Assembly: GCA_028824555.1 (NCBI GenBank)
Contig: JAPPDJ010000052.1
Location: 1 to 57,011 of the forward strand
Length of the DNA: 57,011 nt
Origin: Gammaproteobacteria bacterium
GTDB lineage: Bacteria; Pseudomonadota; Gammaproteobacteria; Pseudomonadales; Azotimanducaceae
Direction: 5' to 3'
Positions 10,972 to 54,434 of this stretch are shown here, piece after piece (position 1 is the stretch's first letter; the number at the start of each line of letters is the position of its first letter). Made by a program: the position numbers and the translations under genes. The notes under the pieces were generated by a model, which did not search any database, was not told the DNA's origin, and worked only from the letters and a program-made list of their open reading frames with translations.

Positions 10972-11159
10972 GAAGGAATGGCAATTGGGCTGGACATGCA
11001 GTCGACTCCGGCGGAGACTGAGGTTTGGGATATGGGTAAGGTGAGGTTGTCGCCGCGTCGCGGGCACTTTTCGACGATATCGACTTTGCACGCTGAACAT
11101 GCCCGCGTGCGGATGCCGGAGTCACGACGCGCTCGCTGATAGGCTTGCAGTAGAAGTGC

Positions 11160-11395: not shown

Positions 11396-11436
11396 CGAAG
11401 AGCTTCGAACTCCTGTTGGATCGGAACTCCAGAGGA

Positions 11437-11937: not shown

Positions 11938-11982
11938 TCACTTCACCTTGGCGACGACGAACCAACATAGCATGGGCGGCCC

Positions 11983-38020: not shown

Positions 38021-38584
38021 TTGGTCGTGTTCAACAATCCCTTTGGCTCGTTTCACGACATGGTGGCTGAGGCCAAGGAAGAGCGTGAACAACTAGACCG
38101 GCTGCTGACCGTTTCCTCACCGCGGGACTCTGTGGCGGTGCTTGGCGTTGCCCTCGCGGCGCTGGTCTTGGGCATGTGGCTCTTTCTTGGCAGCGTGTCT
38201 CGCAGCTTGACGTTGGATGGCGTGGTGCTCGGTGCCGGGGAAGTCTCCCCGAACGGCACACGGTCGGTGCAGGCGCTGGTGTCGGTGGCGCGCGATGCCG
38301 CTGCCGAAGTGGAGGCAGGTGCATCCGTGGCGGTGCATGTGCAAACCGTCGCTTCGCCGGCGACGCTCCCAGGGACGGTGACATCCCTTGAGGTTGCGAA
38401 CCCGGCAGACGGCTTGGCGGAGTTCGCGGCGAGGGTGCCGGTGGGGCTTTACCGAATGGAGCTTGAGTTCGCCTCGGCCACGGTTGATTTCGCTTCGCTG
38501 GCCGGCGAGCCATGCAAGATTGTCGTGGAGCTCCCCGGTACGGCACCGGCAGCGCTGGTTTGGAAGCGCACGGCGTCGCTGTGA
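38021..38584 (+). CDS. NHLM-type bacteriocin secretion protein, short HlyD-like form
   Basis: 187 aa from TTG 38021 (GTG 38027 possible; GGGGGC upstream). The N-terminal helix 'REQLDRLLTVSSPRDSVAVLG' followed by one transmembrane segment ('LGVALAALVLGMWLFLGSV') and 'LTLDGVVLGAGEVSP' is the pattern of the HlyD-like secretion proteins that accompany NHLM exporters. Those are normally more than twice as long, with a coiled-coil hairpin that is missing here; only a beta-rich domain follows. It is the first gene of the RiPP operon and probably couples the inner-membrane exporters to the periplasm. Confidence 0.65.
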   Translation: MVVFNNPFGSFHDMVAEAKEEREQLDRLLTVSSPRDSVAVLGVALAALVLGMWLFLGSVSRSLTLDGVVLGAGEVSPNGTRSVQALVSVARDAAAEVEAGASVAVHVQTVASPATLPGTVTSLEVANPADGLAEFAARVPVGLYRMELEFASATVDFASLAGEPCKIVVELPGTAPAALVWKRTASL

Positions 38585-38597
38585 GGCATTCGTAGCG

Positions 38598-40823
38598 ATG
38601 TCGTCGAGAGGTGCGACTGACCGAGCCGACAAAGTCGCCTCGGCCGAGCCGCAACGGCGGATCGCAACGCCGATCGTCTTGCAGATGCATGCGACCGAGT
38701 GTGGCGCGGCTTGCCTCGGCGCCGTGCTCGGCTTTTTCGGGCGTTGGGTGCCGCTCACGGAATTGCGCGAACGGTGCGAGGTGAGCAGAGACGGGAGCAG
38801 CGCCGCGAGCATCGCCCGCGCCGCCAGACACTATGGCCTCGAATGCAATGGTCTCAGCGTTCGGGCGGAGCAATTGAAGAAGCTCGAACTGCCGCTGATC
38901 CTGTTCTGGCAGTTCAGCCATTTCGTGGTCCTTGACGGCTTTGACAAGGACAGTTTCACCATCAACGATCCATCCTCCGGGCGCCGCAGGATTCCGGAGG
39001 AGGAGTTCCGCGAAGGCTACAGCGGCATCGCGCTTAGGCTCGCCAAGGGCGCCGATTTTCGGTCCGGCGGCGAGCCGCCGGGCCTCGTCTCGCAGCTACG
39101 GGCCGTGCTGAGCGGATCCTGGGGCGCTTTCGGGGGAGTGCTCGCCTGCGGCTTCTTGGCGGCCTTGCTGGCGCTCGTCATTCCCGCTTCGCTGGTCGTG
39201 CTGGTGGATGGCGTGCTGCAGGGCCAAGGCCCCTGGGGGGGCTTGTTGGCGGCCCTCTTGGCGAGCGCAGCTCTCGTATACATCGTGTCCGCGATCAAGC
39301 ATCGGCTCGTGAAGCGGTTGGGAGTTCGCATCGCCGTGATCGGCGCCAACGATGTCGTGACGCGGCTTCTGAGCTTGCCGGTGGAGTTTTTCGACCATCG
39401 GATGGTGGGCGATCTCACCGATCGAGTCTCGTCGATTGACAGAGTCTCGAAGAACATCACCGAGCGATTCCTCCTGCTGGCCCTCGATGTGGTGATGGCT
39501 GCGGTGCTGTTGGTGGCGATGTTTGTCTTGGACGCATGGCTCACGGCAGTCGTGCTGTCGCTGGCAGCATTGCACGGGCTCGCCGCGCGTTTGCTCGCTC
39601 GGCACCGGACCGCACTCAGCGAAGCGATGCGACGCGAGCAGGGGCTCCTGATCGGCGTCGGGCTGCAGATGCTGAGCCACGCCGACACCTTGCGCATGAC
39701 CGGTGCCGATGACCGCTTCTTCGCGCGCTGGAGCGGCCAGCAAGCCAGAGAACTGCGCGCCCGGCGGCCCCATGCGGAGCTCAGTGCCTACCACGCCGCC
39801 GTTCCGGGCCTGATTGCCATCTTCCGCAGCGCCGCCGTTCTTGGCGTGGGGGCGAGCATGGTTGTGGCTGGCGAACTTTCACTCGGCATGCTCGTTGGCT
39901 TCTACGTCCTTGCCGAGATGTTCCTTGCACCCGTCGGCCGGTTCCTCGAGCTCACAGGCGAACGGCAGGCACTCAAGACCGATCTGCAACGCCAAGGCGA
40001 CATCGCGGCGGCCGCGGTGGATCCGGCGATCAAGCGCCGCCGCCCGGAGTCGAAGTCGATTCCGACATTCAACGATCGGCTGCAACTCACCGGCGCCCTG
40101 GAACTGCGCAACGTCACCTTCGGCTTCAACAAAAGCCGGCCGCCGCTCATCAAGGATTTCAGCCTCGTCATCAAGCCGGGACAGCGAGTGGCCGTGGTCG
40201 GGCCGAGTGGCTCCGGCAAGTCCACCTTGGCGCGCCTGGTGGCCGGCGTCCATCAGCCTTGGTCCGGCGAGATTCTCTTCGACGGGCAGCCGCGGGAGGA
40301 GATCCCCGAGGAGGTCCTGCGCCGCTCCATCTCGATGGTCGAGCAGGACATCGCGCTCTTTTCCGCCTCCCTGCGCGACAACATCACTTTGTGGAATCCG
40401 GCCATCCCCGACGAAGCGGTGTTTGCCGCCACCCGAGACGCCCGCATCCATGACGAAATCCTGGTTCGGCCAGACGGCTACGCCACCCGGGTCGAGGAGG
40501 GCGGCGCCAACTTCAGCGGCGGCCAGCGGCAGCGGCTGGAGATCGCCCGAGCGTTGGTGGGCGATCCCACGATGCTCCTGCTCGACGAGGCCACGAGTTC
40601 GCTCGACGCCGCCACGGAAGAGGACATCGATGGCGCCTTGCGGCGGCGCGGCATGACCTGCCTGATCGTCGCGCACCGGCTCAGCACGGTGCGGGACTGC
40701 GACAACATCATCGTGCTCGAACGGGGTGTGGAAGTGCAGCGTGGCACCCACGACGAGCTGGTCCAGGACCAGGGCGGCAGCTATTTCGGCCTGGTCCGTT
40801 CTGATCACGCCCTCGCCGGGTGA
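38598..40823 (+). CDS. NHLM bacteriocin exporter: C39 peptidase/ABC transporter
   Basis: 741 aa from ATG 38598. An N-terminal C39 leader peptidase has oxyanion Gln29, catalytic Cys35 ('ATECGAACLG'), His108 ('FSHFVVLDGF') and Asp124 ('INDPSSG'). Transmembrane helices follow, then an ATPase with Walker A from G535 (GPSGSGKS), signature 'FSGGQRQRLEIARAL' from 639 and Walker B 'MLLLDEATSSLD' from 659. It cuts the leader after a Gly and exports the product. It matches the peptidase/ATP-binding partner of NHLM systems. The next ABC gene starts in its last codon. Confidence 0.93.
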   Translation: MSSRGATDRADKVASAEPQRRIATPIVLQMHATECGAACLGAVLGFFGRWVPLTELRERCEVSRDGSSAASIARAARHYGLECNGLSVRAEQLKKLELPLILFWQFSHFVVLDGFDKDSFTINDPSSGRRRIPEEEFREGYSGIALRLAKGADFRSGGEPPGLVSQLRAVLSGSWGAFGGVLACGFLAALLALVIPASLVVLVDGVLQGQGPWGGLLAALLASAALVYIVSAIKHRLVKRLGVRIAVIGANDVVTRLLSLPVEFFDHRMVGDLTDRVSSIDRVSKNITERFLLLALDVVMAAVLLVAMFVLDAWLTAVVLSLAALHGLAARLLARHRTALSEAMRREQGLLIGVGLQMLSHADTLRMTGADDRFFARWSGQQARELRARRPHAELSAYHAAVPGLIAIFRSAAVLGVGASMVVAGELSLGMLVGFYVLAEMFLAPVGRFLELTGERQALKTDLQRQGDIAAAAVDPAIKRRRPESKSIPTFNDRLQLTGALELRNVTFGFNKSRPPLIKDFSLVIKPGQRVAVVGPSGSGKSTLARLVAGVHQPWSGEILFDGQPREEIPEEVLRRSISMVEQDIALFSASLRDNITLWNPAIPDEAVFAATRDARIHDEILVRPDGYATRVEEGGANFSGGQRQRLEIARALVGDPTMLLLDEATSSLDAATEEDIDGALRRRGMTCLIVAHRLSTVRDCDNIIVLERGVEVQRGTHDELVQDQGGSYFGLVRSDHALAG

Positions 40824-43798
40824 GGCCCGTGCCTGCACCGGCAAGCCCACGCTTTGCATCGCTCGCGGAGCTTGCCGCCCGCCTCGGCACCGTTGTGCCC
40901 TGCGCCGGCAACCTGCCGGTGGAGCTTGACGATCCAGGCAGCGTCTGGTTCATCGAGCAAGGGGTAGTTGATCTCTTCCTCATCGAGCGAAGGAGGGGCG
41001 TCGCGCAGGCGGCACCGCAACATGCATTGCGTCGCAGCTCCGGCGGGCTGTTGCCCGGCGTCGCTCCGGACGAGTCCAGCGACGCCGACGGCACGACCCT
41101 CTGCATGGTTGCCAAGGGATTGCCGGGTACCCTGCTGAAGCGCCTGCCGGCATCGCTGCTGGCGGAAGTGGACCCCGCTGAACTTGCACGCCAGGCCGAT
41201 ACCTGGGTGACCGCCCTGACGGATGTGTTGTCGCGCTTTGCGAGCCCACTGCCGCGACCAACTGCATTGGTGGAGCCCGACACGCCGCAGACGGTGGCAC
41301 CCGGCATCCTGGCTGCGCACAGTCGCGTGGCGTGGCTTGAGCCGCCACGCGGAAAGAGCGCCTATGTGGATGTCTTGGACCCTGCGGACGTTTTGGGCAC
41401 GAGCGATGAACACGGGGTGATGCACAGGCTCCCGCTCACGCGGTCGGCTTGGCTCGCGCTGTCGAGCGCAGCGGAGATCTCGGCCGATTCCACCGAAACC
41501 TTGGCGCGGCAAGGAAGGCTGCTTGCGGCGCTGGCGTCGTTCCATGCCGTTGCCCTCGCCTTGGAGCGCATCAATCGGCGGCTCGCGCTGGTGGACGAGG
41601 TGAATCTCGAACGGGCATGGATGGCCAGTCGCCACACGGCGGAGCAATCCGCCCGTCGGCGGCTGTTCAACATCCATGACCTGCCGATCGGCGAGGACGT
41701 TGGGGGTGAGCAACCGACCGTTGCCAGCGAAGAGCCCCTGCTGGCGGCACTGGGCATCGTCGGCCGCCGCGAGGCGATCGAGTTCCGCGAGCCTCCCCGA
41801 CCGACGTCTGCGGCAGCTGCGCTTTCCGTCGAAGATGTGCTCGATGTTTCCGGCGTGCGCGCGCGCCGCGTGCGACTCGACACCGAGCGCCGTTGGTGGC
41901 GCGGCGACAGCAATGCGCTGCTGGCATTTCGCGCCGCCGACGGGCAACCGGTAGCGCTGCTGCCCGGCATGTTCGGGCGCTACCGACAAGTGGACCCGGT
42001 GACCAAGCGCAGCGTGCGAATGACGCCGGCGCGCGCGGCGGCGCTCAGAAACGAAGCCTGGATGTTCCATGCCCCCTTGCCGTCAGGGCCGCTGCAGCCC
42101 TTGGGTCTCATGCGGCTGGCGTTCAAGGGCTCGGCGGGGGACTTGATGCGGCTGGTGACGGCCGGGCTGCCCGCCGGCCTCGTCAAGCTGCTGCCGGCAT
42201 TGGCTCTCGGGTTCGTTGCGAATTATGTGGCAACCGGCGGCGGCAGTGGCGCGCTCTACGCGGTGGTGCTGACGCTGGCTGGATTTGGCCTGGTCGGTGC
42301 GTTGCTGCATCTCGTGCAAAGCTCGGCGTTGATGCGGCTCGAAGGGCGCTCGGCGTCGCGGCTCGAAGCGGCCTTCTGGGATCGCCTGACCCGCCTGGCG
42401 CCAACCACTCTGCGCCGCCAGCCCACCGGTGCCTTGGCCATGTCCGGCATGAGCTTCCAGAGTCTTCGCGACGGTTTCCGAGACGTCGTCGCCGACAGCG
42501 TCCTGTCCGTCCTGTTTCTGCTGCCCGTCTTCGCGGTGATTCTCTTCTACGACGCCACCCTCGGCACGGTTGCGCTCGGCTTCAGCGTCGCCTCGCTCTT
42601 CGTCACCGTGGCCGTTGGGCTGGGGCAGCTACGTCCTTGGACGCGGCTGATCGCCGCCACTCGGCGCGTCGCCGGCAACCTGTTTCAGATCATTGGCGGC
42701 ATTGCCAAACTGCGGGTGGACAACGCCGAGGGCTCTGCCTTCGCCATCTGGGCCCAGGGTTACCGCGAGCAGAAGCGGGCCGAACTCGATCTCGGCGCGA
42801 TCGAAGGGCACTCCCGCGCGTTTGCCGCCGCACTGCCATTCCTTGCCGTCGCGGCGATGCTCTTCGCGGTGGCGATGTCGGGCGGGCAAAGCAGTGTGCC
42901 GGTCGCGGACTTCCTGGTGGTGCTCATCGTCTTCACGACGTTCCAGTCGGCTGTCGCGCGCCTCGGCGAGTCCGTTGGCGCCGTTGCTGCCATGCTGCCG
43001 GCATCTGCCGAGATGCGTCCGCTGCTTGCCGAAGTGCCGGAGACCGAGGCTGAAGGAGAGCCGGTGGAGCACCTCGGCGGCGATGTTCTGTTCGACCGGG
43101 TGTCGTTTCGCTACGAGGCGGATGGACCGTTGGTTCTCGATGACGTCACGATTCGAGCGAGGCGTGGGGAATTCATCGCCATTGCCGGCGAGTCCGGCGC
43201 CGGCAAGAGCACTCTGTTCCGCCTTGCGCTCGGCATGGAACGTCCATCCGCTGGCGCGGTGTACTACGACGGCAGAGACCTCCGGCACCTGAACCTGAGG
43301 CAACTGCGGCGCAGGATCGGCGCAGTGCCGCAAGCCGTTGGCCTGCATCCGCAGGACATTTGGGACAATGTGGTCAGCCACCACACGGACGCGGCCACCG
43401 ACGAGGTATGGGCGGCAGCGCGCACGGCGGAGGTTGAGGAGCAAATCAAGACCATGCCGATGGGCATGATGACCGTGGTCGGCACCAGCGGCAGCGTGCT
43501 GTCCGGGGGCGAGAGCCAGCGCGTCTCCATTGCCCGGGCCGTGCTCGGCAGCCCACCGGTCATGCTCTTGGACGAGGCAACCAACTGGCTCGACAACGAC
43601 GGGCAAGCCAAGGTCATGGAAAACCTGGCGGGGCAGACGTCGACCCGAGTCGTCATCGCACACCGCCTGTCCACACTGCGCGAGGCAGATCGCATCTACG
43701 TGCTGAAGGCAGGGAGGGTCGTGCAGGTCGGCTCCTTCCGAGAACTCATGGAGGTTGACGGAGTGTTCCGCGATCTAGTCACAAGGCAAATTGCCTAG
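40820..43798 (+). CDS. NHLM bacteriocin exporter: second ABC transporter with large N-terminal domain
   Basis: 992 aa from GTG 40820. The first 440 residues are a soluble region with no catalytic motif I recognise, typical of the second ABC protein of NHLM systems. Transmembrane helices begin near residue 450. The ATPase has Walker A GESGAGKS at 790-797, signature 'LSGGESQRV' from 894 and Walker B 'VMLLDEATNWLD' from 914. It probably pairs with the C39 exporter as a heterodimer; it has no peptidase. It overlaps the upstream gene by 4 bp, and the leader-toroid gene starts 15 bp later. Confidence 0.92.
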   Translation: MRPVPAPASPRFASLAELAARLGTVVPCAGNLPVELDDPGSVWFIEQGVVDLFLIERRRGVAQAAPQHALRRSSGGLLPGVAPDESSDADGTTLCMVAKGLPGTLLKRLPASLLAEVDPAELARQADTWVTALTDVLSRFASPLPRPTALVEPDTPQTVAPGILAAHSRVAWLEPPRGKSAYVDVLDPADVLGTSDEHGVMHRLPLTRSAWLALSSAAEISADSTETLARQGRLLAALASFHAVALALERINRRLALVDEVNLERAWMASRHTAEQSARRRLFNIHDLPIGEDVGGEQPTVASEEPLLAALGIVGRREAIEFREPPRPTSAAAALSVEDVLDVSGVRARRVRLDTERRWWRGDSNALLAFRAADGQPVALLPGMFGRYRQVDPVTKRSVRMTPARAAALRNEAWMFHAPLPSGPLQPLGLMRLAFKGSAGDLMRLVTAGLPAGLVKLLPALALGFVANYVATGGGSGALYAVVLTLAGFGLVGALLHLVQSSALMRLEGRSASRLEAAFWDRLTRLAPTTLRRQPTGALAMSGMSFQSLRDGFRDVVADSVLSVLFLLPVFAVILFYDATLGTVALGFSVASLFVTVAVGLGQLRPWTRLIAATRRVAGNLFQIIGGIAKLRVDNAEGSAFAIWAQGYREQKRAELDLGAIEGHSRAFAAALPFLAVAAMLFAVAMSGGQSSVPVADFLVVLIVFTTFQSAVARLGESVGAVAAMLPASAEMRPLLAEVPETEAEGEPVEHLGGDVLFDRVSFRYEADGPLVLDDVTIRARRGEFIAIAGESGAGKSTLFRLALGMERPSAGAVYYDGRDLRHLNLRQLRRRIGAVPQAVGLHPQDIWDNVVSHHTDAATDEVWAAARTAEVEEQIKTMPMGMMTVVGTSGSVLSGGESQRVSIARAVLGSPPVMLLDEATNWLDNDGQAKVMENLAGQTSTRVVIAHRLSTLREADRIYVLKAGRVVQVGSFRELMEVDGVFRDLVTRQIA

Positions 43799-43813
43799 CG
43801 CTGAGGTAGTGGT

Positions 43814-45121
43814 TTGAAGGAGGGTGCCATCGACGCAACAGCGCGCATCCTGGCGCGCGCCGAGGAAGACGGTGAGTTTCGCCGTCGTCTGCTGGCTGGG
43901 CCGGAAGCGGCCAAGGCCGCGATCGAGCAGGAGCTCGGCACGCCGCTGGCGGACGGGCATCGGTTGGTTGTGCACGAGGAGACCGACACCGAGACGCATC
44001 TGGTGCTGGCTCCGAGAAGCAAGCGCAGCGCCGAAGAGCGTGCCGCAGCAAGGAGTGGCGCGGCCTCCCTCGAGTTCCTGAAAAAGACCATGCACGACCC
44101 GGCGCCCGCTCGCCGCGATGCCGCGCGCAAGCCGAGCGGCGACTGGACGAGTTCGCCGTCACCGACCGCGTCATCGAAAGAGGTGCGACAGTCCATTCGC
44201 CGTGGGCTCGCGTTCCTCGCGTCCGCCGTCGACGACAACGGCGCTTGGCACTGCATTCGGTTCAATCTGGCGAATCCCAGCATTCCGCGACACTACGAGA
44301 GGCCAGCGTTCATTTCAGCGCTTTGCACCTTGGCGCTCGAGAGCTCCGACGAGCCGCAGGCGAAGGCCTTGCGCGCCGCAACGTGGAACTACATCGCAGC
44401 CACCATGGAGCACCCCGGCCTGTGGCGCTATTACCGCCACCTGCCCCAAGACCTCGACAGCAGTGCGCTGTGTGGCCTGGTGGTCGGCACGCACCCGTGG
44501 ATCGCGCTCGGCCGCAACGTCGCCCGGATGCTCGCCAACCGCGATGCAGACGGTCGTTTCATGACCTGGGTGCTCGAGCAAGACGAGCCGGACGTTACAC
44601 CGAGCTTTCGCATCGAAGCCGACCCGGTGGTGAACGCGAATGTCATCGCCTACGTTGGCGACGGGGCGGAGACCAAGGCTGCCCAGCAATGGCTGCATGC
44701 CCTGCTCGCCGACGACCGCATCGAGGGCACCTCGAAGTGGTATCCGAGCACGGTGGCGATCTACTACGCGATCAGCCGCACGGTCGTCCGCACAAGCCCG
44801 GCCCTCGACCACCTGCGGCCATTGCTGACCGAGCGCATTCTGGCCCTCGCAGGGGAAGCCGGCGAATTCGGCAACGTGCTAGAGACCGCGCAGGCGATGT
44901 CGGCACTCTACAACGTGGGCGGCTTGGATAGCGTTGACGCACGGCGCGAGACCGCGCGCCTGCTGGACGCCCAGCGCGACGACGGGAGCTGGCCGGAACT
45001 GCTCGCCTTTGGCGACGAAACCTTGCGCTGGGGGCTGATCGGGCAGATCGGCCACGGCTCCGAGTCGGTGACCACGGCGTTCTGCATCGAGGCACTCGAG
45101 CGCCTCACACGCGTGCTTTGA
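43814..45121 (+). CDS. NHLP leader domain fused to squalene-cyclase-like alpha-toroid
   Basis: 435 aa from TTG 43814 (GAGG 7 bp upstream). Residues 1-75 align with the leader of the precursor at 51390-51641: 'FRRRLLAGPEAA' versus 'FRQQLLADPKA', 'QELG' in both, then 'VHE..T.HL.L'. Residues about 115-435 form a prenyltransferase/squalene-oxidase-type helical toroid with a QW-type motif 'QRDDGSW' at 387-393. The SHC/OSC acid motif DxDD is not seen; 'EADPVVNANVIAY' stands in a similar place. It could be a leader-docked modifying enzyme or carry the leader as an intramolecular recruitment tag. No core peptide with Cys/Ser follows the leader part, so it is not itself a precursor. Confidence 0.75.
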   Translation: MKEGAIDATARILARAEEDGEFRRRLLAGPEAAKAAIEQELGTPLADGHRLVVHEETDTETHLVLAPRSKRSAEERAAARSGAASLEFLKKTMHDPAPARRDAARKPSGDWTSSPSPTASSKEVRQSIRRGLAFLASAVDDNGAWHCIRFNLANPSIPRHYERPAFISALCTLALESSDEPQAKALRAATWNYIAATMEHPGLWRYYRHLPQDLDSSALCGLVVGTHPWIALGRNVARMLANRDADGRFMTWVLEQDEPDVTPSFRIEADPVVNANVIAYVGDGAETKAAQQWLHALLADDRIEGTSKWYPSTVAIYYAISRTVVRTSPALDHLRPLLTERILALAGEAGEFGNVLETAQAMSALYNVGGLDSVDARRETARLLDAQRDDGSWPELLAFGDETLRWGLIGQIGHGSESVTTAFCIEALERLTRVL

Positions 45122-45171
45122 ATTTCGACGCCGCACCACGCCGAGTCGCTGGCGCGGGAGGAACATGGATG

Positions 45172-45212
45172 GGCCGTGGGGACTGGCTCGTCCCGTCCCC
45201 TACGAGTTTCTT
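45172..45212. repeat. Degenerate half copy of the GTAGGGGACGGG palindrome
   Basis: GTGGGGACTGGCTCGTCCCG followed by TCCCCTACGAG resembles one arm of the palindrome at 24578-24657. It lies in the 159-bp gap ahead of the monooxygenase gene. Confidence 0.5.
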
Positions 45213-45280
45213 CGCCACTGGTCGCGTGCTAGCATCGCCTAGATTGAGAGTTGCAAAGGGCTGGCGCAGGGAGAGCCGCC

Positions 45281-47677
45281 ATGGGGCAAGAGACAGCCGC
45301 ACGCGTCCTCGGCACGAATGAAACCAGAGCCGGCAAGTCCATAGAGCCTTCGCCTCTCACCGCCCTGCCGCACTTTCTTCCACTCGGCATCTTCCCCTTG
45401 CTCTACGTCGCAATCGTCTTTGGTGGTTGGTGGTTGCTTGCGCCGTTTGTGTTCATGAGCGTTACCGGGCCGCTGGATAAGCTGCTAGGGGCAGACGGTC
45501 GCAGGATGGACCCCGCAACAACGCCCGAGGGGCGGCTGTTTTGGCACAACCTACCGGTTTGGACATGGGCCTTCCTGTGGCCGCCGACTCTGATTTTTGG
45601 CATGTGGATGATCCTCGTCGCCGAGCGCTACGCCATCTGGGAAGCGGTGGCGCTCGCAATCATCCTCACCATGGAGGCGCAGGCCGTCTTTGTCGTGGGT
45701 CACGAGTTGGTGCATCGGCGCAGCACATGGGAACGGCGGCTCGGCGAGTTCCTGCTCGCGTCAGCGTCCTATCCACAGTATGCGACCGAGCATGTATATA
45801 TACACCACGCGAAGGTTGGCACACCCCACGATGTTGGCTCCGCCCGCAAAGGCGAGAGCTTTTGGCACTACTTTCCGAAGGAAGTCGTTAGCAACCTTGT
45901 GAACTCCTGGCAGGTCGCGAGCGAACGCCTGCGGCGCCGCAACCTGCCACGGTGGCATCTCAGCAATCCTTTCTGGCGCTACGGCATCGGCATCGCGTTC
46001 TGGTATGGAGTCGTGTTCTGGATGGGTGGAATCTGGGCAGTGCCGGTGTTTGCCTTCCTGGGCCTCGGCTGTGTCTTTTCGATGAAGCTCAGCAACTACT
46101 TCCAGCACTATGGCCTGCGCCGCGTGCGGCTGCCGGGCGGGCGCTGGGAGAAGGCGACGCCACGCCATTCCTGGGACGCGGACTGGAAATACAGCAACTG
46201 GATGTTCTTCAACATGCAGCGCCATGCGGATCACCATGCCATGGCGTCGAGGCCCTATCCGCTGCTGCAGGCCGCGGGCGCGGACGAATCGCCGGTTTTG
46301 CCCGGAACCTATGCCGACATGATGAACATCGTGCTGCGCCCCAGGCGGTGGTTCGAAAAAATGGATCCACTCGTGGAGCAGTGGCGCAGGCACTTCTATC
46401 CCGACATGGAAGACTGGAGCGCCTACGACAGTCCGGTCGCGGCCGCGCGGCCTGACGCCTTCGAGGCGATCGTCGAGATCTTCGCCGCCGCGCCCAGGCT
46501 CGCGACCTGGATCGAGCAGAGCCCGCAACTGCTCGATGCTCTAGAGGAGCGCGAGTTCACCGATCTCGACCTTCCGCAAGGCTTCGGGCCGGATCCGGAG
46601 TCTGAGGCCATCGCTCGGCGCGGCTTGGCGCGGCTCTACTGGACTCGCGAAATGGGCGCCTCCGAGCTGACGGAACTCGCGGGCGAACTGCCGGCAGCGG
46701 ATGGCCGGGAGACTGCAGAGGCCGTTCGGAACTGGGCCAACGACAAGGCATTTCAGGTCGGCATGCATGTGCTGCGCGGCAACCTGTCACCCGGCGAGGC
46801 GAGGATGGCCCTCTCGAATCTCGCCGAAGCATCGCTTGCGACGGTGGCGGCCGCAGTGGTCGCTGACATTGCCGGCACGGGGCCGGGCGCGGGTCGCGGC
46901 ATCGCCATCGTCGCCTTGGGAGACCTCGCGAGCCGTGACATTCACCCCGACAGCGCCATCGACGTGTTGCTCGTGCATGACGGTTGGCAGGCGAGCGAAA
47001 GCCAACGCCTGGTCCGGCGCTTCGGCACGGCATTGCGGGACCTTGCCCAGCACAGCCTGCTGTTTTCCCCGACAGACTCGAAGCCCGTTGCCGCACTGCC
47101 GCTTGGCGAGTTGGCCGGTCGTTTGGCCGAGGCACCTGACGGTGCGGTTCCCTTGGGTCTCAGGGCGCGCCGCGTGTTCGACTGGGGCGATGCCGCATTC
47201 GGTGGTCGCGTGGACGAAGCCGGGCGCGAGGCGCTACGCCGCTCGGCGAACGCTCCGCTGCCAGAGCGGCAAAGCCGCGCCGCAACCGACGAGCAAGGCA
47301 AGGGCGCAACAAACTACGCCAACATGCCTGGCGGGCTGGTGGACACCGAAACGGCGGCACGCCTGTTGCTGCTGACGCAAGAGCCGCGTTTAGCGGAGGC
47401 CCATGCCAAACCCGGTGATTCCCCACCCCCAGCGGCCGTGATCCTTACCAACTGCGGCGCCGAAAGGCTGGCAAAAGCCGCCACGCTTTGGCGCGACCTT
47501 GAGGGCATCATGCGTCTCGTGGGCGAGGAGGGATTCGACGTTGCCAGCGCCACACCGAACGTCCAGTATGTCGTCGCCAATGCCTGCGGCTGCGAGAGCT
47601 ACGAAGCCTTGGAACAGGCGGTGAATGAGGCCGCATCGGGTGCCGCCGCCGAAATCGACGCACTTGCAGCCGCGTGA
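45281..47677 (+). CDS. AlkB-like membrane di-iron monooxygenase fused to GlnE-like adenylyltransferase module
   Basis: 798 aa from ATG 45281 (GGGAG upstream). Residues 30-370 form an AlkB/fatty-acid-hydroxylase-type membrane enzyme with histidine boxes HELVH (141-145), HVYIHH (171-176), NYFQHYG (272-278) and RHADHH (314-319), plus several transmembrane helices. Residues about 410-650 resemble the N-terminal half of glutamine-synthetase adenylyltransferase: 'SPQLLDALEE', 'LSPGEARMALSNLAEASL', then 'IAIVALGDLASRD', the nucleotidyltransferase core. There the usual SDLD is SAID, so one catalytic Asp is lost (A559) and the domain is probably inactive or only binding. The C-terminal about 150 residues are unknown. 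It sits mid-operon and likely hydroxylates or desaturates the peptide or a lipid partner. I know of no such fusion. Confidence 0.8.
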   Translation: MGQETAARVLGTNETRAGKSIEPSPLTALPHFLPLGIFPLLYVAIVFGGWWLLAPFVFMSVTGPLDKLLGADGRRMDPATTPEGRLFWHNLPVWTWAFLWPPTLIFGMWMILVAERYAIWEAVALAIILTMEAQAVFVVGHELVHRRSTWERRLGEFLLASASYPQYATEHVYIHHAKVGTPHDVGSARKGESFWHYFPKEVVSNLVNSWQVASERLRRRNLPRWHLSNPFWRYGIGIAFWYGVVFWMGGIWAVPVFAFLGLGCVFSMKLSNYFQHYGLRRVRLPGGRWEKATPRHSWDADWKYSNWMFFNMQRHADHHAMASRPYPLLQAAGADESPVLPGTYADMMNIVLRPRRWFEKMDPLVEQWRRHFYPDMEDWSAYDSPVAAARPDAFEAIVEIFAAAPRLATWIEQSPQLLDALEEREFTDLDLPQGFGPDPESEAIARRGLARLYWTREMGASELTELAGELPAADGRETAEAVRNWANDKAFQVGMHVLRGNLSPGEARMALSNLAEASLATVAAAVVADIAGTGPGAGRGIAIVALGDLASRDIHPDSAIDVLLVHDGWQASESQRLVRRFGTALRDLAQHSLLFSPTDSKPVAALPLGELAGRLAEAPDGAVPLGLRARRVFDWGDAAFGGRVDEAGREALRRSANAPLPERQSRAATDEQGKGATNYANMPGGLVDTETAARLLLLTQEPRLAEAHAKPGDSPPPAAVILTNCGAERLAKAATLWRDLEGIMRLVGEEGFDVASATPNVQYVVANACGCESYEALEQAVNEAASGAAAEIDALAAA

Positions 47678-50022
47678 TCCCCGACCCACAACCCACGTCG
47701 GGCACCCAAGCGAACGTCCCGGCCGAACCGAGCGCCCCGCGCAGCATATTGCGGCGCACGACCCCGGAGGACCAAGGCCTCGTCCGCCTGCCCGCGCTCG
47801 CCCCCCATCTTGAGTTCCGTCAAGTCGGCGAGCAGCAGACTCTGCTGGTGTCGGAGTCCTTCAACACCCTGCTGCATGGCGAGCTGTACCGCGAAATGCT
47901 GCCGTTGCTCGATGGCCGGCACTCGCAGCAGGAGATCGTCGCGGCGCTCGGCGACAGCCACGCCTTCACCAACATTCTGAGCGCAACGGTTTCCCTTGCG
48001 GGCAAGGGCTATGTCGTCTCTGCCGAGCACGGCATGGAACGCAATCGAGCCGCGTACTTCTCGGCGCTGGGTGCATCGCCGCGCTGGGCTGAGGCGCGGC
48101 TGGCAGATTCGCGCATCCGCGTGCTCGGCGACGCCCACCAACTCGTCCGCCATCTGCAAGAGTCCGGCGTGACGGTGGCGAGGGATGCCCCCAAACTCAC
48201 GGTGGTTGTCTGCGACGACTATCTGGCGTCGCGCCTCGCCGATGTGAATCGCCGTCAGCTCGAGCTCGGCGAACCTTGGATGCTGGTGCGGCCGCGCGGC
48301 ACCGAGCCGCTGTTCGGCCCCGTCTTTCCTGGCGAGCGAAGCGGCCCCTGTTGGGCCTGCCTTGCCGAGCGGCTTCAGGGCCACCGGGAGGTACACAACT
48401 TCCTGCGCAGCAGTGCTGGCGAGGGCGCTGCCTTCAGGCCAACCGCGAGCCATCCGGCCACGCTTGAGGCATTCTGGGGCTTGGTTGCCGCCGAGGTCAT
48501 CAAGTGGCTGGTGCTCGATGCGGCGGCACCGATTCACGACTGTGTCCTCGCCATGAATGTCGTCGAATTCGCGAGTTCCAAGCATCGGGTTACACAGCGG
48601 CCCCAATGCTCCGTCTGCGGCGACGAGGCGCTGTATCGGCCGGATCGCCCACCGCTGCCGCTCAGCTTGCTGGCAAGTCCAAAGCTCCATGCCACCAGCG
48701 GCGGCGCCCGCACCGTGCCGCCGCAAGTCACGCTCGCGCGATACCGTCATTTGGTGAGCCCCATCAGCGGTGTGGTGACTTGGCTCGAACGCACCAGCGA
48801 AGACACCGACCCCTGGCTGCACGTGCATTGGGCGGGCAGCAATCTCGGCATGAGAAGCCAGAGCCTGAGTTCGCTGCGGCAGAGCCTGCGCAGCAAGAGT
48901 GCCGGCAAGGGCAGCAGCGGCGAGCAGTCGGAGGCGAGCGCCTTGTGCGAGGCCGTGGAGCGCTACTCAGGCGCAATGCACGGCGAGGAGATCCGCATCC
49001 GCCAGCGCTTCAGCGACTTCGACGGCGAGGCGATCCATCCAGACGCAGTGCAGCTTTTCAGCGAGCGTCAGCTTGACGATGCCAAGAAGATCAACGCGAA
49101 GGGGCATCCGTACAACGTCGTTCCACCGCGTCTTGATCCCGATGCAGAAATCGACTGGAGCCCCGTGTGGTCGCTGACGCACAAGCGGCATCGCTATCTG
49201 CCCACGTCCATGCTCTACAGCACGGCGCCGGAAGGGCGCGGCCCCTGGGACCGGATCGCCGACTCCAACGGCTGCGCCGCCGGCAACACGATCGCGGAAG
49301 CCGTGCTGCAAGGGTTCTTCGAGCTTGCCGAGCGCGATGCATTCGCCATTTGGTGGTACAACCGCTTGCAGGTGGCGGCGGTGGACCTCGCGAGTTTCGA
49401 CGACGACTACCTCGCCCGTGCGCCGGCCTACTATGCCCGCCACGACCGCGAGCTGTGGCTGCTCGACGTCACCGCCGACATGGACATCCCGGCGTTCGTC
49501 GCCCTGTCGCGGAAGCCCGATGGCGAAGCCGAAGAGATCATCTACGGCGCCGGCGCCCACACCGACCCGCGCCTGGCGGCGTTGCGGGCCGTCTGCGAGT
49601 TGAACCAGTGCCTCACTTGGCTGCCTCGGCCCGGCAGCAATGCCGGTGGCCCGGCGATCGACGATCCGCTCGCGCTTTGGTGGTGGAAGACCGCCAAACT
49701 CGCAGACTGTCCGTGGCTTGCGCCTAGGCAAGACGAACCGCCCTGCAGCGCCGAGCGTTACTTCGCGCCAGAAACGACGGACACCCTTGAGGATGTGGAA
49801 CGCTGTCGCGCGCTCGTCGAGGCACGGGGCATGGAGTTGCTCGTGCTGGACCAAACCCGGCCCGACGTCGGCATGCCCGTGGTGCGGGTCATCGTGCCCG
49901 GGATGCGACACTTTTGGGCCCGGTTCGCGCCGGGGCGGCTGTACGACGTTCCGGTGACCATGGGCCGGCGCAGCCATCCGCTCGAAGAAGCGGACCTCAA
50001 CCCTGCCCCCGTGATCGCCTGA
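47674..50022 (+). CDS. Fused cyclodehydratase C-domain/YcaO protein (TOMM azoline synthetase)
   Basis: 782 aa from GTG 47674, overlapping the monooxygenase stop. The N-terminal half is the leader-binding, ThiF-like cyclodehydratase part with two CxxC zinc sites ('CWAC' near 226 and 'CSVC' near 312). The C-terminal half is YcaO: 'SEASALCEAVERYSG' near 418-432 and 'GNTIAEAVLQGFFELAERDA' near 536-556 are the ATP/Mg motifs. It converts Cys/Ser/Thr of a RiPP core into thiazolines or oxazolines using ATP. The C-terminus 'NPAPVIA' only partly resembles the PxPxP tail of many TOMM YcaO enzymes. No SagB-type dehydrogenase is encoded nearby, so azolines may not be oxidised by the usual route. Confidence 0.9.
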   Translation: MIPDPQPTSGTQANVPAEPSAPRSILRRTTPEDQGLVRLPALAPHLEFRQVGEQQTLLVSESFNTLLHGELYREMLPLLDGRHSQQEIVAALGDSHAFTNILSATVSLAGKGYVVSAEHGMERNRAAYFSALGASPRWAEARLADSRIRVLGDAHQLVRHLQESGVTVARDAPKLTVVVCDDYLASRLADVNRRQLELGEPWMLVRPRGTEPLFGPVFPGERSGPCWACLAERLQGHREVHNFLRSSAGEGAAFRPTASHPATLEAFWGLVAAEVIKWLVLDAAAPIHDCVLAMNVVEFASSKHRVTQRPQCSVCGDEALYRPDRPPLPLSLLASPKLHATSGGARTVPPQVTLARYRHLVSPISGVVTWLERTSEDTDPWLHVHWAGSNLGMRSQSLSSLRQSLRSKSAGKGSSGEQSEASALCEAVERYSGAMHGEEIRIRQRFSDFDGEAIHPDAVQLFSERQLDDAKKINAKGHPYNVVPPRLDPDAEIDWSPVWSLTHKRHRYLPTSMLYSTAPEGRGPWDRIADSNGCAAGNTIAEAVLQGFFELAERDAFAIWWYNRLQVAAVDLASFDDDYLARAPAYYARHDRELWLLDVTADMDIPAFVALSRKPDGEAEEIIYGAGAHTDPRLAALRAVCELNQCLTWLPRPGSNAGGPAIDDPLALWWWKTAKLADCPWLAPRQDEPPCSAERYFAPETTDTLEDVERCRALVEARGMELLVLDQTRPDVGMPVVRVIVPGMRHFWARFAPGRLYDVPVTMGRRSHPLEEADLNPAPVIA

Positions 50023-50032
50023 GGGAGCCGAC

Positions 50033-51139
50033 ATGGACATCGACGAGGCGATCACCCTCACTCAGGACCGCCTTGCCCAAGAGGGCGAGACCATGGGTGA
50101 CCTGATCGGCCATTTCCGCAGCAAGGTCTCGCCGGTTCTCGTGGGCGAACCCGAGTGGCAGCGCATCGTTGAATGCGCCGGCGGACTGCCGATCATTTTG
50201 GGAGCCTTGCCGTTCGGCTTCGAGTTGCCACTGCACGACCGTCGGCCGCAGGCGGACCTTGGCGTTTCCCTCGCGAGCGGGACCGCAACGGCGGGCTTCT
50301 TCCACGCGGCTGCCGGCGCCGACGAGACGGCGGGCATCGTCACGCGTCTGTTCGGGCAGATGGACACCGCCAACTCGCGCTTGCGCGAAATCGTTGGCCC
50401 CAAGCTGATGCTGGAGTTCGACATCGGTTCGGCCGGCGAGGGCGAGCGCCCCCTTCCGGGCGTGTTCCTGCGGCCCGGAGAGCGGCCCATCGTCGGCGCC
50501 TCGGGCCAAGTGGACGACGTGAACGTGGTGGTGGACGCACTGGTCTCGTCCGTCGGTTGGGCAAGCAACGAAGCCGAGCGCCGGCAGGTGCAACGCGCTT
50601 ATCTCGCGCAGCCCGAGGACACGCGGCTCGACTCGTTCGGGGTGTTTCCGTCCCGTGAGAGGGCCATTCGTCTCGCGGTCATGGGCTTCAAGTCGCAGGC
50701 GGAGACCTGCACATACCTTGAGGAGGCAGGCTGGCCCGGTGATCTGTCTGCCGTTCGCGACGTGATGTCCCGCTTTCGCCAGCGCGCCAACATCGTCAGG
50801 AGTGGAGCGAACATCGATGTTTGGGAGGACGGGCTCGGCCCCACCCTGGGGCTCACCCTCATCGTCAAGCAGAGATACACCAAGGACTCGCGCTATTGGC
50901 TGGACGGCCTCACCGACTGGGACCCGTTCCTCGGAGCCTTGGGCGAGGAGGAGATCGTGGTTCTGGACAAACTCGCGGCGCTTGCCGACTGGGCCTCAAC
51001 GCCGACGCCGCTCTTCGGCAGGGCCGGCCGCTACGTGCTGCTGCGAGGCATCCACCACATCAAGCTGGTCATAGCCGACGGTGCCCTCCGGCAGGCCAAG
51101 GCATACGTTTTCTTGGTGCTCTCCGCCGCCGTAACCTAG
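50033..51139 (+). CDS. Unrecognised RiPP-cluster protein
   Basis: 368 aa, starting 10 bp after the YcaO gene with GGGAG before ATG 50033. No flavin-nitroreductase (SagB) signature, signal peptide or transmembrane segment is seen. Noticeable segments are 'LMLEFDIGSAGEGERPLPGVFL' (an EFD..PxVFL pattern, mid-protein), 'GLGPTLGLTLIV' and a C-terminal 'RGIHHIKLVIADG' followed by 'AKAYVF'. This last arrangement (HIK..AKAY) looks like a conserved family end, and I associate it loosely with clusters that have cyclase-like toroids; this is memory, not proof. Tight coupling to the YcaO gene implies a role in peptide modification or in supporting the toroid fusion. Confidence 0.6.
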   Translation: MDIDEAITLTQDRLAQEGETMGDLIGHFRSKVSPVLVGEPEWQRIVECAGGLPIILGALPFGFELPLHDRRPQADLGVSLASGTATAGFFHAAAGADETAGIVTRLFGQMDTANSRLREIVGPKLMLEFDIGSAGEGERPLPGVFLRPGERPIVGASGQVDDVNVVVDALVSSVGWASNEAERRQVQRAYLAQPEDTRLDSFGVFPSRERAIRLAVMGFKSQAETCTYLEEAGWPGDLSAVRDVMSRFRQRANIVRSGANIDVWEDGLGPTLGLTLIVKQRYTKDSRYWLDGLTDWDPFLGALGEEEIVVLDKLAALADWASTPTPLFGRAGRYVLLRGIHHIKLVIADGALRQAKAYVFLVLSAAVT

Positions 51140-51185
51140 CGCCGCTTCGCGGCGCTCTGGCAGTTTTCGCTTGCGCGAAAACTGC
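51139..51185. terminator. Paired hairpins after the RiPP operon
   Basis: GCGCCGC-TTC-GCGGCGC (51139-51155), then GCAGTTTTCGC-TTGC-GCGAAAACTGC (51160-51185, 11-bp stem). They begin at the stop codon region of the last plus-strand gene. There is no long T tract, so a terminator role is an inference. Confidence 0.5.
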
Positions 51186-51206
51186 TACGGTCCGTCCTAG
51201 GGCCAC

Positions 51207-51339
51207 GAACGGGTCCTTGGAGGGAGGGCGTCTCGCCCTCCCTGGCGTGCCGCAGGCACGCGTTCGGTGCTTTAGCCAAACGGAACGCGCCTTGCGGCGC
51301 GTATGGAGGGCGAGACGCCCTCCCTCCAAAGGCCCGTTC
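51207..51339. repeat. Dispersed palindromic repeat, complete copy between convergent RiPP genes
   Basis: Arms 51207-51241 and 51305-51339 are 35 bp with two mismatches and contain GGAGGGCGTCTCGCCCTCC. The loop has GCGTGCCGCAGGCACGC and GCGCCTTGCGGCGC hairpins. It separates the plus-strand operon from the convergent precursor gene and could end transcription from both sides. Confidence 0.85.
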
Positions 51340-51389
51340 ATCCCAACAGGCTGACGCGCCCGATGGGCGCGGGAACAGGCCCTAAAGAC

Positions 51390-51641
51390 CTACCAGCAGC
51401 AGCAAAGTCCGGCCGAGATGGCCTCGAGCTGTTCCTCGGTGATGTTGGGGTCCGGGGGCAAGGCGAGATGCACAGTTTGCATGTCGCTCTCGTGCACCTT
51501 GATGGTCATCGACTCCGGAATCGTGATGCCGAGTTCCTGGGAGATCGTTGCTTTGGGGTCCGCAAGAAGCTGCTGCCGGAACCCCGCGTCGAGAGCGGAC
51601 TTCTCGACGATGTGCTGCAGCATTTCGTCACCACTTTTCAT
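51390..51641 (-). CDS. NHLP-family RiPP precursor peptide, core LCCCW
   Basis: 83 aa from ATG 51641, with AGGAG 9 bp upstream; longer in-frame starts lack a ribosome-binding site. Residues 1-78 are a nitrile-hydratase-alpha-like leader ('MLQHIVEKSALDAGFRQQLL', 'ISQELGITIPESMTIKVHE', 'TVHLALPP'). The end is 'EAISAG-LCCCW': an Ala77-Gly78 cleavage site for the C39 exporter, then Leu-Cys-Cys-Cys-Trp as the core. Three adjacent cysteines suit the YcaO cyclodehydratase and the single Trp suits the divergent halogenase. Five residues is remarkably short for a TOMM core. The leader recurs at the N-terminus of the toroid fusion at 43814. The family is clear; the modification pattern is inferred. Confidence 0.88.
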   Translation of the reverse strand: MKSGDEMLQHIVEKSALDAGFRQQLLADPKATISQELGITIPESMTIKVHESDMQTVHLALPPDPNITEEQLEAISAGLCCCW

Positions 51642-51829
51642 GAGCGGCACTCCTGTCTTGGCCATTTGCTCGCACGGCGAAAAAGCGTCGCCGAAACATG
51701 GCCGCACCGTAGCACGACTTGGTGCGCCCGGCAACGTGCCACGCGAGGTCCGGCCGACCTACGACGCGTCCGTCACGGCGCATCTTGCGGGGTAGAATCG
51801 AAGGGCACGTCGGAGGCTCAAGCACAAGC
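51642..51829. promoter_or_regulatory. Divergent promoter region between precursor and halogenase genes
   Basis: 188 bp between divergent starts. Promoters for both must be here unless transcription reads in from outside. I cannot assign -35/-10 boxes with confidence. GGAGG at 51812-51816 is the likely halogenase ribosome-binding site, with rather long spacing. Confidence 0.5.
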
Positions 51830-53098
51830 ATGCTCGGTCGGGAGTCTTTGCGGAGGATCGCAGTGGTCGGGCGCGGCACCGCCGGATGCCTCGCGGCCGC
51901 GAGCGTGACGCGTCTGCTTCGAGGCAGCGACCACGAACTGCACCACATTTATGACTCTCGAATACCGGTCATCGGAGTCGGCGAAGGTAGCTGGCCGAGC
52001 TTGGTGCAGGAACTCGCGCGACTGACCGAACTCCCGCACGAGGCCATACAGCTACGCCTGAACGGAACGCGCAAGTACGGCGTTGCATTCGAGGGCTGGG
52101 GTCGGCGCAACAAAGACTTTACACACTACTTTACGCCCCAGCAGGTGTCCTATGCCTATCATCTTTCCGCTGACCTTTTGGCTGCCTTGTTGCAGGAGAG
52201 CACCTCGGCCCAGCACATCGACGCAGAGGTCCTCAGCATCACGAAAGTCGAAGCGGGAGCGCGGGTGGAGTTCGATGGCCTGCCACCCGAACACTATGAC
52301 CTCGTCTTCGATGCGCGCGGTTTCCCCAAGGGCCTCCTTGCCGACGAGCACATCGACATCTCCTTCATCCCCACCAACACGGCAGTCATTCGACGCGCCC
52401 CGGCAATCGCCCTTCAAGAGCGCGAGGGCGTGGCTGTGCAGCCCACCTACACCAGAGCGGTGGCACGCCGGCACGGTTGGGTGTTCGTGATTCCCCTCAC
52501 GGCACACACGTCCTATGGCTACATCTTCAACCGCGATGTGACCACCCTCGCCGAGGTCGAGTCAGACTTCGATGCGCTGCTCGAGGCAGAGGACGTGCGA
52601 GATTTCGAACAACGAGCCGTGCTGCGGTTTCCGAACTTCGTCCATCGCCAGATCTACGACGGCGCGGTGGCGCGCATCGGCAATGCGGCGGCCTTCATGG
52701 AGCCGCTCGAAGCCACGGCGATCGTGTCGGCGCAGTTGCAGATCGGCATGATCCTGCAAATGCGACTGAACCGTCCGTCGGAACATCTGGAGCGGGATGT
52801 GCCGGTGGTGAATCGGTTTCTGGTCAACACGGTGCTGCGCTACGGCCTGTTCGTCGGCTGGCACTACTCCTGCGGCTCAAGCTACGACAGCGAATTCTGG
52901 CGCCACGCGAAAGACCACGTTTGGCCCAGCCACCGTCAAGCCGCCGACCCACAAAAGGTGCACTGCAACGCCTTGCGCACATTCGACGACATGCAGGCAC
53001 TCTTGCGCCAGACCGTCATCGACCCCGACGACTGGAATCGAATGTGCGCCGTCCCCCTCACCAGCTTCGCCCAGATGTCCCAAGGCCTCGGCTGCTAG
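51830..53098 (+). CDS. Flavin-dependent tryptophan halogenase-like enzyme
   Basis: 422 aa from ATG 51830. FAD-binding GxGxxG is 'VVGRGTAGCLAA' (14-19) and the halogenase motif is 'GVGEGSWPSL' (49-58). A lysine at 82 ('GTRKYGVAFEGW') occupies the place of the catalytic Lys that carries the chloramine. The WxWxIP motif appears as 'GWVFVIPL' (216-223, second Trp replaced by Phe), followed by 'FMEPLEATAI'. It is about 100 residues shorter than free-Trp halogenases such as PrnA, in keeping with a peptide or different aromatic substrate. A separate flavin reductase is needed and not found here. Lying back-to-back with a precursor ending in Trp, it is a strong candidate to halogenate that residue. 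Confidence 0.85.
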   Translation: MLGRESLRRIAVVGRGTAGCLAAASVTRLLRGSDHELHHIYDSRIPVIGVGEGSWPSLVQELARLTELPHEAIQLRLNGTRKYGVAFEGWGRRNKDFTHYFTPQQVSYAYHLSADLLAALLQESTSAQHIDAEVLSITKVEAGARVEFDGLPPEHYDLVFDARGFPKGLLADEHIDISFIPTNTAVIRRAPAIALQEREGVAVQPTYTRAVARRHGWVFVIPLTAHTSYGYIFNRDVTTLAEVESDFDALLEAEDVRDFEQRAVLRFPNFVHRQIYDGAVARIGNAAAFMEPLEATAIVSAQLQIGMILQMRLNRPSEHLERDVPVVNRFLVNTVLRYGLFVGWHYSCGSSYDSEFWRHAKDHVWPSHRQAADPQKVHCNALRTFDDMQALLRQTVIDPDDWNRMCAVPLTSFAQMSQGLGC

Positions 53099-53171: not shown

Positions 53172-53268
53172 TTTAACCCGCCGATAAACATAAACTTTTT
53201 GGCGTATCGGGCACCGCCGGGGCACACTGCTTCTCAACAACCCCTTGTAACCGAACAGGGAACGGGAA

Positions 53269-54434
53269 GTGAACAATCGACCCCTCATGCTGTCCGCAAC
53301 CTTCGTCCGCAACGCCAACCGCCCCGGCCGCTACGGCGACGGCCGCGGCGGGCTCGGCCTCGGCCTGCTCGTCCGGCCCGCGCTGCGCGGCGGCGTCAAC
53401 AAGCCCTGGACGCAGAGCGTCCGCATCGACGGCAGGGCCACCAGCCTCGGCCTCGGCCGCTACCCCGTCGTCACCCTCGCCATGGCGCGCGAGCGGGCGC
53501 TGGAGAACGCCCGCGCCATCGCCCAGGGCCGCGATCCAAGGCGCTCGGGCAAGGCCGTGCCGACCTTCGCCGAGGCGCTGGAGACCGTCATCGGCATCCA
53601 CGCCCCGAACTGGAAGGACCGCGCCGGCTCCGAACGCCAGTGGCGCGCGAGCCTCGCCGCCTACGCGCTGCCGCGGCTCGGCGCCAAGACCGTGGATGCC
53701 GTGACGAGCGCCGACGTCATGGCCGTGCTGCTGCCGATCTGGTCGACGAAGCGGGTGACCGCCGGCCGCGTGCGGCAGCGCATCGGCGCCGTCATGAAGT
53801 GGGCGGTCGCGCAGGGGCTGCGCGCCGACAACCCCGCCGGCGACGCGATCTCCGCGGCGCTGCCGAGGACCGCCGCGGCGCGGCGGCACCAGCGGGCGTT
53901 GCCGCACGCCGAGGTCCGCGCCGCACTCGCGCGGGTGCGGGACTGCGACGCGCACGCCGGCGTCAGGCTGGCGTTCGAGTTCCTGGTGCTGACCGCGACC
54001 CGCTCGGGCGAGGTGCGCAACGCCCGCTGGGAGGAGATCGACCGCGACGGCGCGGTGTGGACGATTCCCGCCGAGCGGATGAAGAACGGCCGCGAACACC
54101 GCGTGCCGCTGTCGGACCGCGCCCTCGAGGTGCTCGACGAGGCCCGCGAGCTGGCCGTGGCGGAGGCTGGGTGTTCCCGTCGCCGCGCGGCCGCGCCATG
54201 CACCAGAGATACCTTTCCGAACTCATGCGCACGCTGGCCGTCGACGCCGTCCCGCACGGCTTCCGCTCGAGCTTCCGCGACTGGGCCGCCGAGTGCACGG
54301 ACGCGCCGCGCGAGGTCTGCGAGCTCGCCTTGGCGCACGTCAGCGGCGATCGCGTGGAGGCCGCCTACCGGCGCAGCGACCTGTTCGACAGGCGCCGCGC
54401 GCTGATGGCCGACTGGGCAGCGTACGTGGCCTGA
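53269..54434 (+). pseudogene. Frameshifted tyrosine-recombinase (phage-type integrase)
   Basis: Starting at GTG 53269 (or ATG 53287), the frame encodes an arm-binding domain ('SLGLGRYPVVTLAMARERALE'), a core-binding domain and the first half of the catalytic domain with Arg in 'TATRSGEVRNARW'. Near 54150-54165 the coding shifts by minus one. The other frame then supplies 'GGWVFPSPRGRAMHQRYL', the HxxR motif 'HGFRSSFRDW', 'LALAHVSGD' and the tyrosine in 'EAAYRRSDLF'. All catalytic residues are present but split over two frames, so it is a recent pseudogene or a single-base sequence error. There is no tRNA nearby. Confidence 0.85.

Follow-up and report, generated by a model that had tools for sequence, protein, structure and literature searches.

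The srp proteusin clusters of marine-sponge bacteria, treated by Nguyen et al. (2021, 2023, 2024), have their founding paper in a 2021 article of J Am Chem Soc that is cited by PMC10858898 and PMC10286304. According to the available sections of these two articles, the precursor SrpE is an NHLP peptide with the core LCCCW, whose three cysteines are converted to thiazolines by SrpC and whose C-terminal tryptophan is brominated by SrpI at C6 of the indole; the accessible part of PMC9426513 reports that the cluster is conserved across sponge species. The window analysed here is the whole stretch of 57,011 nucleotides (positions 1-57011 of contig JAPPDJ010000052.1), from a genome of 4.2 Mb that is 96% complete in 182 contigs. 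Its region 38021-53098 is an srp-type proteusin cluster, a further copy of the published system, and the genes beside the srp-like ones are predicted to add, cyclise and oxidise an isoprenoid. An isoprenoid on the peptide, whatever its acceptor, is considered very probable, with tryptophan as the favoured acceptor.

Relation to the srp family

All cluster parts listed in the original prediction, which had been made from the sequence alone, were recovered by the profile and domain searches (ABC, ATP-binding cassette; TOMM, thiazole/oxazole-modified microcin):

38021..38584, plus strand: short HlyD-like secretion protein (start TTG, or alternatively the ATG at 38060; TIGR03794 22 bits, below the cut-off of 156)
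38598..40823, plus strand: NHLM ABC exporter 1 with C39 leader peptidase (ATG start; TIGR03796 822 bits, cut-off 853; Peptidase_C39 6.8e-34)
40820..43798, plus strand: NHLM ABC exporter 2 (TIGR03797 637 bits, cut-off 709)
43814..45121, plus strand: fusion of an NHLP leader-like domain with a beta domain of predicted class II terpene cyclase type (motif D213-L-D215-S)
45281..47677, plus strand: AlkB-type membrane di-iron oxygenase with a GlnE-like nucleotidyltransferase domain, its D-x-D degraded (ATG start)
47674..50022, plus strand: TOMM leader-binding/cyclodehydratase YcaO fusion, SrpC-like (TIGR03604 272 bits and TIGR03882 128 bits, both above cut-off)
50033..51139, plus strand: predicted ABBA-fold aromatic prenyltransferase of 368 residues
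51390..51641, minus strand: SrpE-like NHLP precursor of 83 residues (TIGR03793 68 bits, cut-off 50.9; core LCCCW after ISAG)
51830..53098, plus strand: predicted SrpI-like flavin-dependent tryptophan brominase (ATG start; Trp_halogenase 1e-46)

The plus-strand genes form an operon-like run in the order given, from the HlyD-like protein to the halogenase, and the precursor gene lies on the minus strand between those of the 368-residue protein and the halogenase. Thus, of the two genes previously placed opposite the run, the precursor is so oriented, whereas the halogenase shares the operon strand.

The likeness to srp rests on the published core of SrpE and the position of its leader motif, on the YcaO enzyme SrpC and on the published key residues of SrpI. 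The precursor ends in AISAG-LCCCW, which together with its TIGR03793 match bears out the expected NHLP-type cluster for a ribosomally synthesised and post-translationally modified peptide (RiPP) with a five-residue core. This core (residues 79-83) equals that of SrpE, and the NHLP leader motif stands at the same position (residues 66-72), reading NITEEQL instead of NLTEEQL, with isoleucine replacing the first leucine of L(X)4L. A YcaO cyclodehydratase is encoded alongside the precursor, with both of its profile matches above cut-off. The halogenase has the key residues of the C-terminal-tryptophan halogenase SrpI: its Lys82, Tyr and PQQVSY loop (P103-Q-Q-V-S-Y108) correspond, by the published residue numbering, to the catalytic Lys84, Tyr102 and loop P105-S109 (P105-Q-Q-V-S-Y110, with Tyr110) given in the available text of PMC10858898 and PMC10286304, the offset being 2 and the residue spacing, therefore, identical. 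If the window enzyme acts as SrpI, the halogenation would be a bromination. Azolines, halogenation and possible oxidation, as predicted from the YcaO, halogenase and di-iron monooxygenase genes, appear to have been the right reading, whereas the statement that no described system has this combination does not hold, the LCCCW core, the YcaO enzyme SrpC and the Trp brominase SrpI being in print in the same sections of these two articles. Taken as a whole, the earlier interpretation is partly supported.

For the related loci, the best 80 of 122 relatives by AlkB-GlnE similarity were taken from a scan of genome contigs, which makes the presence of AlkB true by construction. The precursor family is present in 67 of the 80 loci, with the core exactly LCCCW in 64, more than by chance, and these 64 cores are written with 7 different codings. 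The 71 precursors of the 67 loci end in LCCCW (64), LCCCGW (2), LSCCW (1) and, as second precursors, MCCCGI (4), the leader part of the toroid at L072:8526-9140 being left out of the core counts; at the first L(X)4L position the 67 locus precursors hold Ile in 61 cases, Leu in 5 and Met in 1. A protein search gave 694 precursor relatives, and the 120 of them that were listed end in LCCCW (116), LSCCW (3) and LCCSW (1).

Predicted terpene enzymes and product

The leader-toroid fusion, already recognised as a fusion in the original prediction, consists of an NHLP leader-like domain (approximately residues 1-115) and a domain (approximately residues 118-435) that belongs to the alpha/alpha-toroid beta domain of class II terpene cyclases, an identity which had been missed. 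Its variant motif D-L-D-S aligns with DxDTT, and both aspartates of D-L-D are kept without exception in the 43 aligned sequences (42 of the 68 locus sequences and the window). The toroid is predicted to be a class II terpene cyclase. The 368-residue protein, formerly listed as unknown, has the ABBA barrel fold in an AlphaFold2 model whose nearest folds are indole prenyltransferases, and is predicted from the model to be an ABBA aromatic prenyltransferase. The AlkB part of the next fusion resembles the alkane 1-monooxygenase 8f6t (1.9e-54 in a PDB search), and all 46 sequences of alignment A1 (45 of the 120 listed homologues and the window) share the AlkB motif histidines. The GlnE part matches GlnE 3k7d (3e-9), but the D-x-D motif has an aspartate at its first position in none of the 46 and at its second in 28; this domain looks catalytically dead and may have a structural role. 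Since the match of the fusion stops at residue 652-681 in seven loci (L065, L067, L071, L073, L074, L075, L081), its last part seems dispensable.

As the 368-residue protein is prenyltransferase-like and the toroid a putative terpene cyclase, the predicted product changes. The NHLP leader would dock the enzymes, the leader-like domain of the cyclase would be a docking module of its own, and YcaO would turn the three cysteines into thiazolines, as published for SrpC and SrpE; the halogenase would brominate the C-terminal tryptophan at indole C6, as published for SrpI. The peptide would then receive an allylic isoprenoid from the ABBA enzyme, with the tryptophan indole as the most likely site. 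The AlkB domain would oxidise this isoprenoid, an epoxide being one possible result, and the cyclase would protonate and fold it, with D215 of D-L-D-S as general acid, in the manner of MstE on a prenylated aromatic acid. Finally, the C39 peptidase would cleave behind ISAG, and export of the product would fall to both NHLM transporters. Such a conversion of LCCCW into a brominated thiazoline peptide with a cyclised, oxidised isoprenoid, by an srp-type cluster with added AlkB, ABBA and leader-fused cyclase enzymes and with tryptophan as the preferred acceptor, is judged moderately probable. If the remaining genes do add and cyclise a terpene, the search for a plain brominated thiazoline peptide targets the wrong mass: the predicted [M+H]+ values with three thiazolines and 79Br are 651.088 (bare), 719.150 (C5), 787.213 (C10), 855.275 (C15) and 923.338 (C20), each increased by 15.995 if one oxygen is present. 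A terpene cyclase with a built-in RiPP leader would also, if confirmed, offer a new means of directing such enzymes to peptide substrates.

The terpene reading has its strongest single support in a locus that came to light only once the reading had been formed, and which serves as an independent test of it. A search for the prenyltransferase family in relatives found divergent members, one of them in a genome (G625) of the same family as the window genome, where two NHLP precursors, a prenyltransferase, a cyclase and a polyprenyl synthase (PF00348, 2.5e-54) stand in a row (L100:7724-12472). The prenyltransferase homologue scores 91.5 bits (29% identity) and the cyclase homologue 189.6 bits, the latter being without the leader domain and having DADDT at the motif; in a single-protein PDB search it gave no match. 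The cores, which follow Gly-Gly, are unrelated to LCCCW, and the precursors have His-containing tails (..RIVPHSH and ..QMVRHNH). In 19.9 kb of this locus the tblastn search (E 1e-3) matched the cyclase, prenyltransferase and leader only, with no relative of the window YcaO, AlkB-GlnE, halogenase, HlyD or ABC proteins. The pair beside unrelated NHLP precursors and a polyprenyl synthase thus suggests that prenyltransferase and cyclase travel as a unit with isoprenoid supply and NHLP precursors; we infer prenyl transfer activity for the window enzyme, with the polyprenyl synthase of this operon as its support.

Related loci and the weighing of alternatives

The cluster is widespread and close to invariant. 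Synteny was counted in the 49 of the 80 loci whose AlkB gene has at least 9 kb on either side. Matches to the cyclase, AlkB, YcaO and prenyltransferase genes are present in all 49, to the precursor in 48, to ABC exporter 2 in 45, to the halogenase and ABC exporter 1 in 44 each and to the HlyD-like gene in 42 (55 of all 80); the original prediction, which was to be rejected if related genomes always kept precursor and halogenase apart from the other genes, withstands this comparison. Toroid, AlkB, YcaO and 368-residue protein genes follow in this order on one strand in 63 of the 67 loci with all four, and the precursor is opposite in strand to the 368-residue protein gene in 67 of 67 loci having both. 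Frames are broken in L072, and in L082 a cyclase gene is represented by its end alone, some 9 kb off. In the prenyltransferase tree (71 of the 80 loci and the window), the rows with a phylum in the title span eight phyla, and these labels need 12 changes as compared with the minimum of 7, which makes transfer likely, not proven. That srp clusters in at least eight phyla of sponge symbionts make a RiPP meroterpenoid, a five-residue tris-thiazoline bromotryptophan peptide with a polycyclic oxygenated isoprenoid, by means of a split prenyltransferase/cyclase pair with a leader-tagged cyclase, is put forward tentatively, as a nearly balanced question.

Record titles start with 'MAG' in 79 of the 80 loci, L080 being 'Spongia_Bin9'; few of them name a host, and the assignment to sponge bacteria is based on the published work and on isolate names. 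The isolate names of L056 and L072 start with Plut, which probably stands for the coral Porites lutea; if so, the cluster extends beyond sponges.

A number of observations speak against the terpene reading or against tryptophan as its acceptor. The prenyltransferase assignment depends on one AlphaFold2 model with a mean predicted local distance difference test (pLDDT) of 73.4 (33 to 73 across five models), and a shared ABBA fold demonstrates no function. Pfam and PDB profile searches with alignment A2 (26 of the 120 listed homologues and the window) and the broader A5 gave no match to a known prenyltransferase family (best Pfam entry DUF7639 at 0.0086, with E up to 10), and Pfam gave none for the divergent homologues; the protein is, therefore, called a fold relative, with no named family to which it is assigned. 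A Trp_DMAT scan of 299 genomes found nothing, and its controls were also unmatched, which makes it uninformative. Among the cluster genes of the window none was recognised as an isoprenoid synthase, and the isoprenoid is a predicted substrate of AlkB. The cyclase lacks the third aspartate of DxDD, which, along with the already degenerate GlnE-like domain of this cluster, would suit the view that the toroid and the 368-residue protein have no catalytic role and act as scaffolds for holding or presenting the leader, with enzyme folds left over as relics; this is very improbable, for both aspartates of D-L-D are invariant, and DxDTT enzymes are active though without the last Asp. The accessible text of PMC10858898, PMC10286304 and PMC12615548 describes only thiazolines and bromine on SrpE, a word search of it found a prenyl or terpene step in one reference title only, and, among the papers listed in literature searches for such a step in srp, no title or abstract opening names one. 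AlkB oxygenases usually oxidise free hydrocarbons. The published view could, accordingly, be complete, with LCCCW made only into the tris-thiazoline bromo-Trp peptide and the prenyltransferase, cyclase and AlkB serving a separate lipid product, but this is improbable: the cyclase carries its NHLP leader-like domain in cis, the prenyltransferase-cyclase pair recurs by unrelated NHLP precursors in L100, and none of the three genes is missing from any of the 49 full-flank loci.

As to the acceptor, tryptophan at the C-terminus of all 67 canonical precursors (64 LCCCW, 2 LCCCGW, 1 LSCCW) and the indole prenyltransferases as nearest folds argue for the tryptophan indole. However, divergent prenyltransferase homologues (181-316 bits; 35-41% identical by BLAST) lie near the Trp-free cores LCCCL (L096), MCCCL (L098) and ECIC, VCQC and LCACM (L097), the two cores of L100 are Trp-free and hold Tyr and His, and in L071, L073, L074 and L075 a Trp-free MCCCGI precursor shares its locus with the sole prenyltransferase; tryptophan thus need not be the acceptor. 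A brominase orthologue of at least 71% identity occurs in 11 of the 16 genomes checked, so that bromination could account for the retention of Trp in most cases, although the chromosome record L023 has no halogenase match and its precursor keeps Trp. Attachment elsewhere, at either terminus of the core or at a ring formed from Cys, positions common to LCCCW and the Trp-free cores, is favoured also by one contig of G322 (L095/L096) on which an LCCCW set occurs together with an LCCCL set. The divergent homologues may just differ in specificity; either they prenylate another target, or Trp serves as acceptor in none of them; an isoprenoid on a non-Trp acceptor is rated unlikely, and tryptophan remains preferred.

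Several of these loci have features of their own. The two neighbouring G322 sets are separated by a pair of transporters, another AlkB-GlnE and one of the divergent prenyltransferase homologues, with no second YcaO or cyclase match. L097:6421-18709 contains three NHLP precursors and two prenyltransferase homologues, close to which a methyltransferase and an FMO-like oxidoreductase are encoded. L099:4173-11716 has an AlkB-GlnE-like gene and a YcaO gene (56% identical), together with a tandem pair of prenyltransferase homologues, and there is no precursor match in the 15.5-kb contig. The MCCCGI precursors (L071:18272-18544, L073:18471-18743, L074:18254-19249, L075:18272-18544) lie on the enzyme-gene strand, about 2.5 kb from the LCCCW precursor. 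An MMPL/RND-type exporter gene was matched in 29 of the 80 loci, ending just before the HlyD gene in L007, L012, L013, L015 and L078 and lying elsewhere in L006, and a DUF1302-like gene (Pfam DUF1302 below cut-off) in 23, adjoining the halogenase in L007, L009 and L012. Neither gene is in the window, while a 43% MMPL relative lies on another contig of the same genome; such exporters would fit a greasy product, which is only suggestive. Rieske oxygenases occur near the cluster in 11 of the 80 loci by single-linkage clustering (including L009, L022, L028, L029, L035 and L037), and Pfam confirmed all three tested (L022, L035, L037).

In the window itself, a 19-base element of the repetitive extragenic palindromic type, GGAGGGCGTCTCGCCCTCC, forms an inverted pair at 51223-51241 and 51305-51323 between the convergent prenyltransferase and precursor genes, with 263 genome copies at no more than 1 mismatch (120 forward, 143 reverse) and 0 for its backwards control. 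A phage-type integrase C-terminal fragment (53199-54434; PRK09692 28.9 bits, residues 351-410 only) lies directly downstream of the halogenase, and a plasmid search gave no match. Positions 8001-12000 have a G+C of 0.58-0.59 as compared with mostly 0.63-0.68 and hold an 824-residue frame without a Pfam match at 1e-4.

Comparison with terpene-bearing peptide systems

The prenyltransferase, terpene-cyclase and oxygenase steps are predictions made here and are absent from the available srp texts (PMC10858898, PMC10286304). A close counterpart is NctPC (Hubrich et al. 2024, by the reference list of PMC13290415), described in section 8 of that article as a fusion protein of ABBA prenyltransferase and MstE-like cyclase, which geranylgeranylates Trp and cyclises the chain. 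Both systems would apply an ABBA-fold prenyltransferase and an MstE-like cyclase to a ribosomal peptide, but in NctPC these form one fused protein, whereas the window has two genes, a cyclase with an NHLP leader-like domain, thiazolines, bromine and an AlkB oxygenase. Two class II terpene cyclases, MstE and drimenol synthase (AsDMS), have solved complexes with prenylated benzoates and farnesyl diphosphate and, unlike the window enzyme, no NHLP domain. The mpp cluster of Moorena producens (MppE, MppI, MppC, MppD, MppG), as listed in the available part of PMC11791876, is similar by description in having a brominase, an ABBA prenyltransferase, a terpene synthase and an oxygenase in one RiPP cluster, with the leader-dependent MppC geranylating Trp according to the accessible text of PMC12715784; it differs in its Nif11-type leader, lanthionine synthetase and arginases, in place of the NHLP leader and YcaO. 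With NctPC and mpp, terpene-bearing RiPPs are, thus, a known kind, the locus itself is a copy of a published system, and the new content is a testable prediction of its product.
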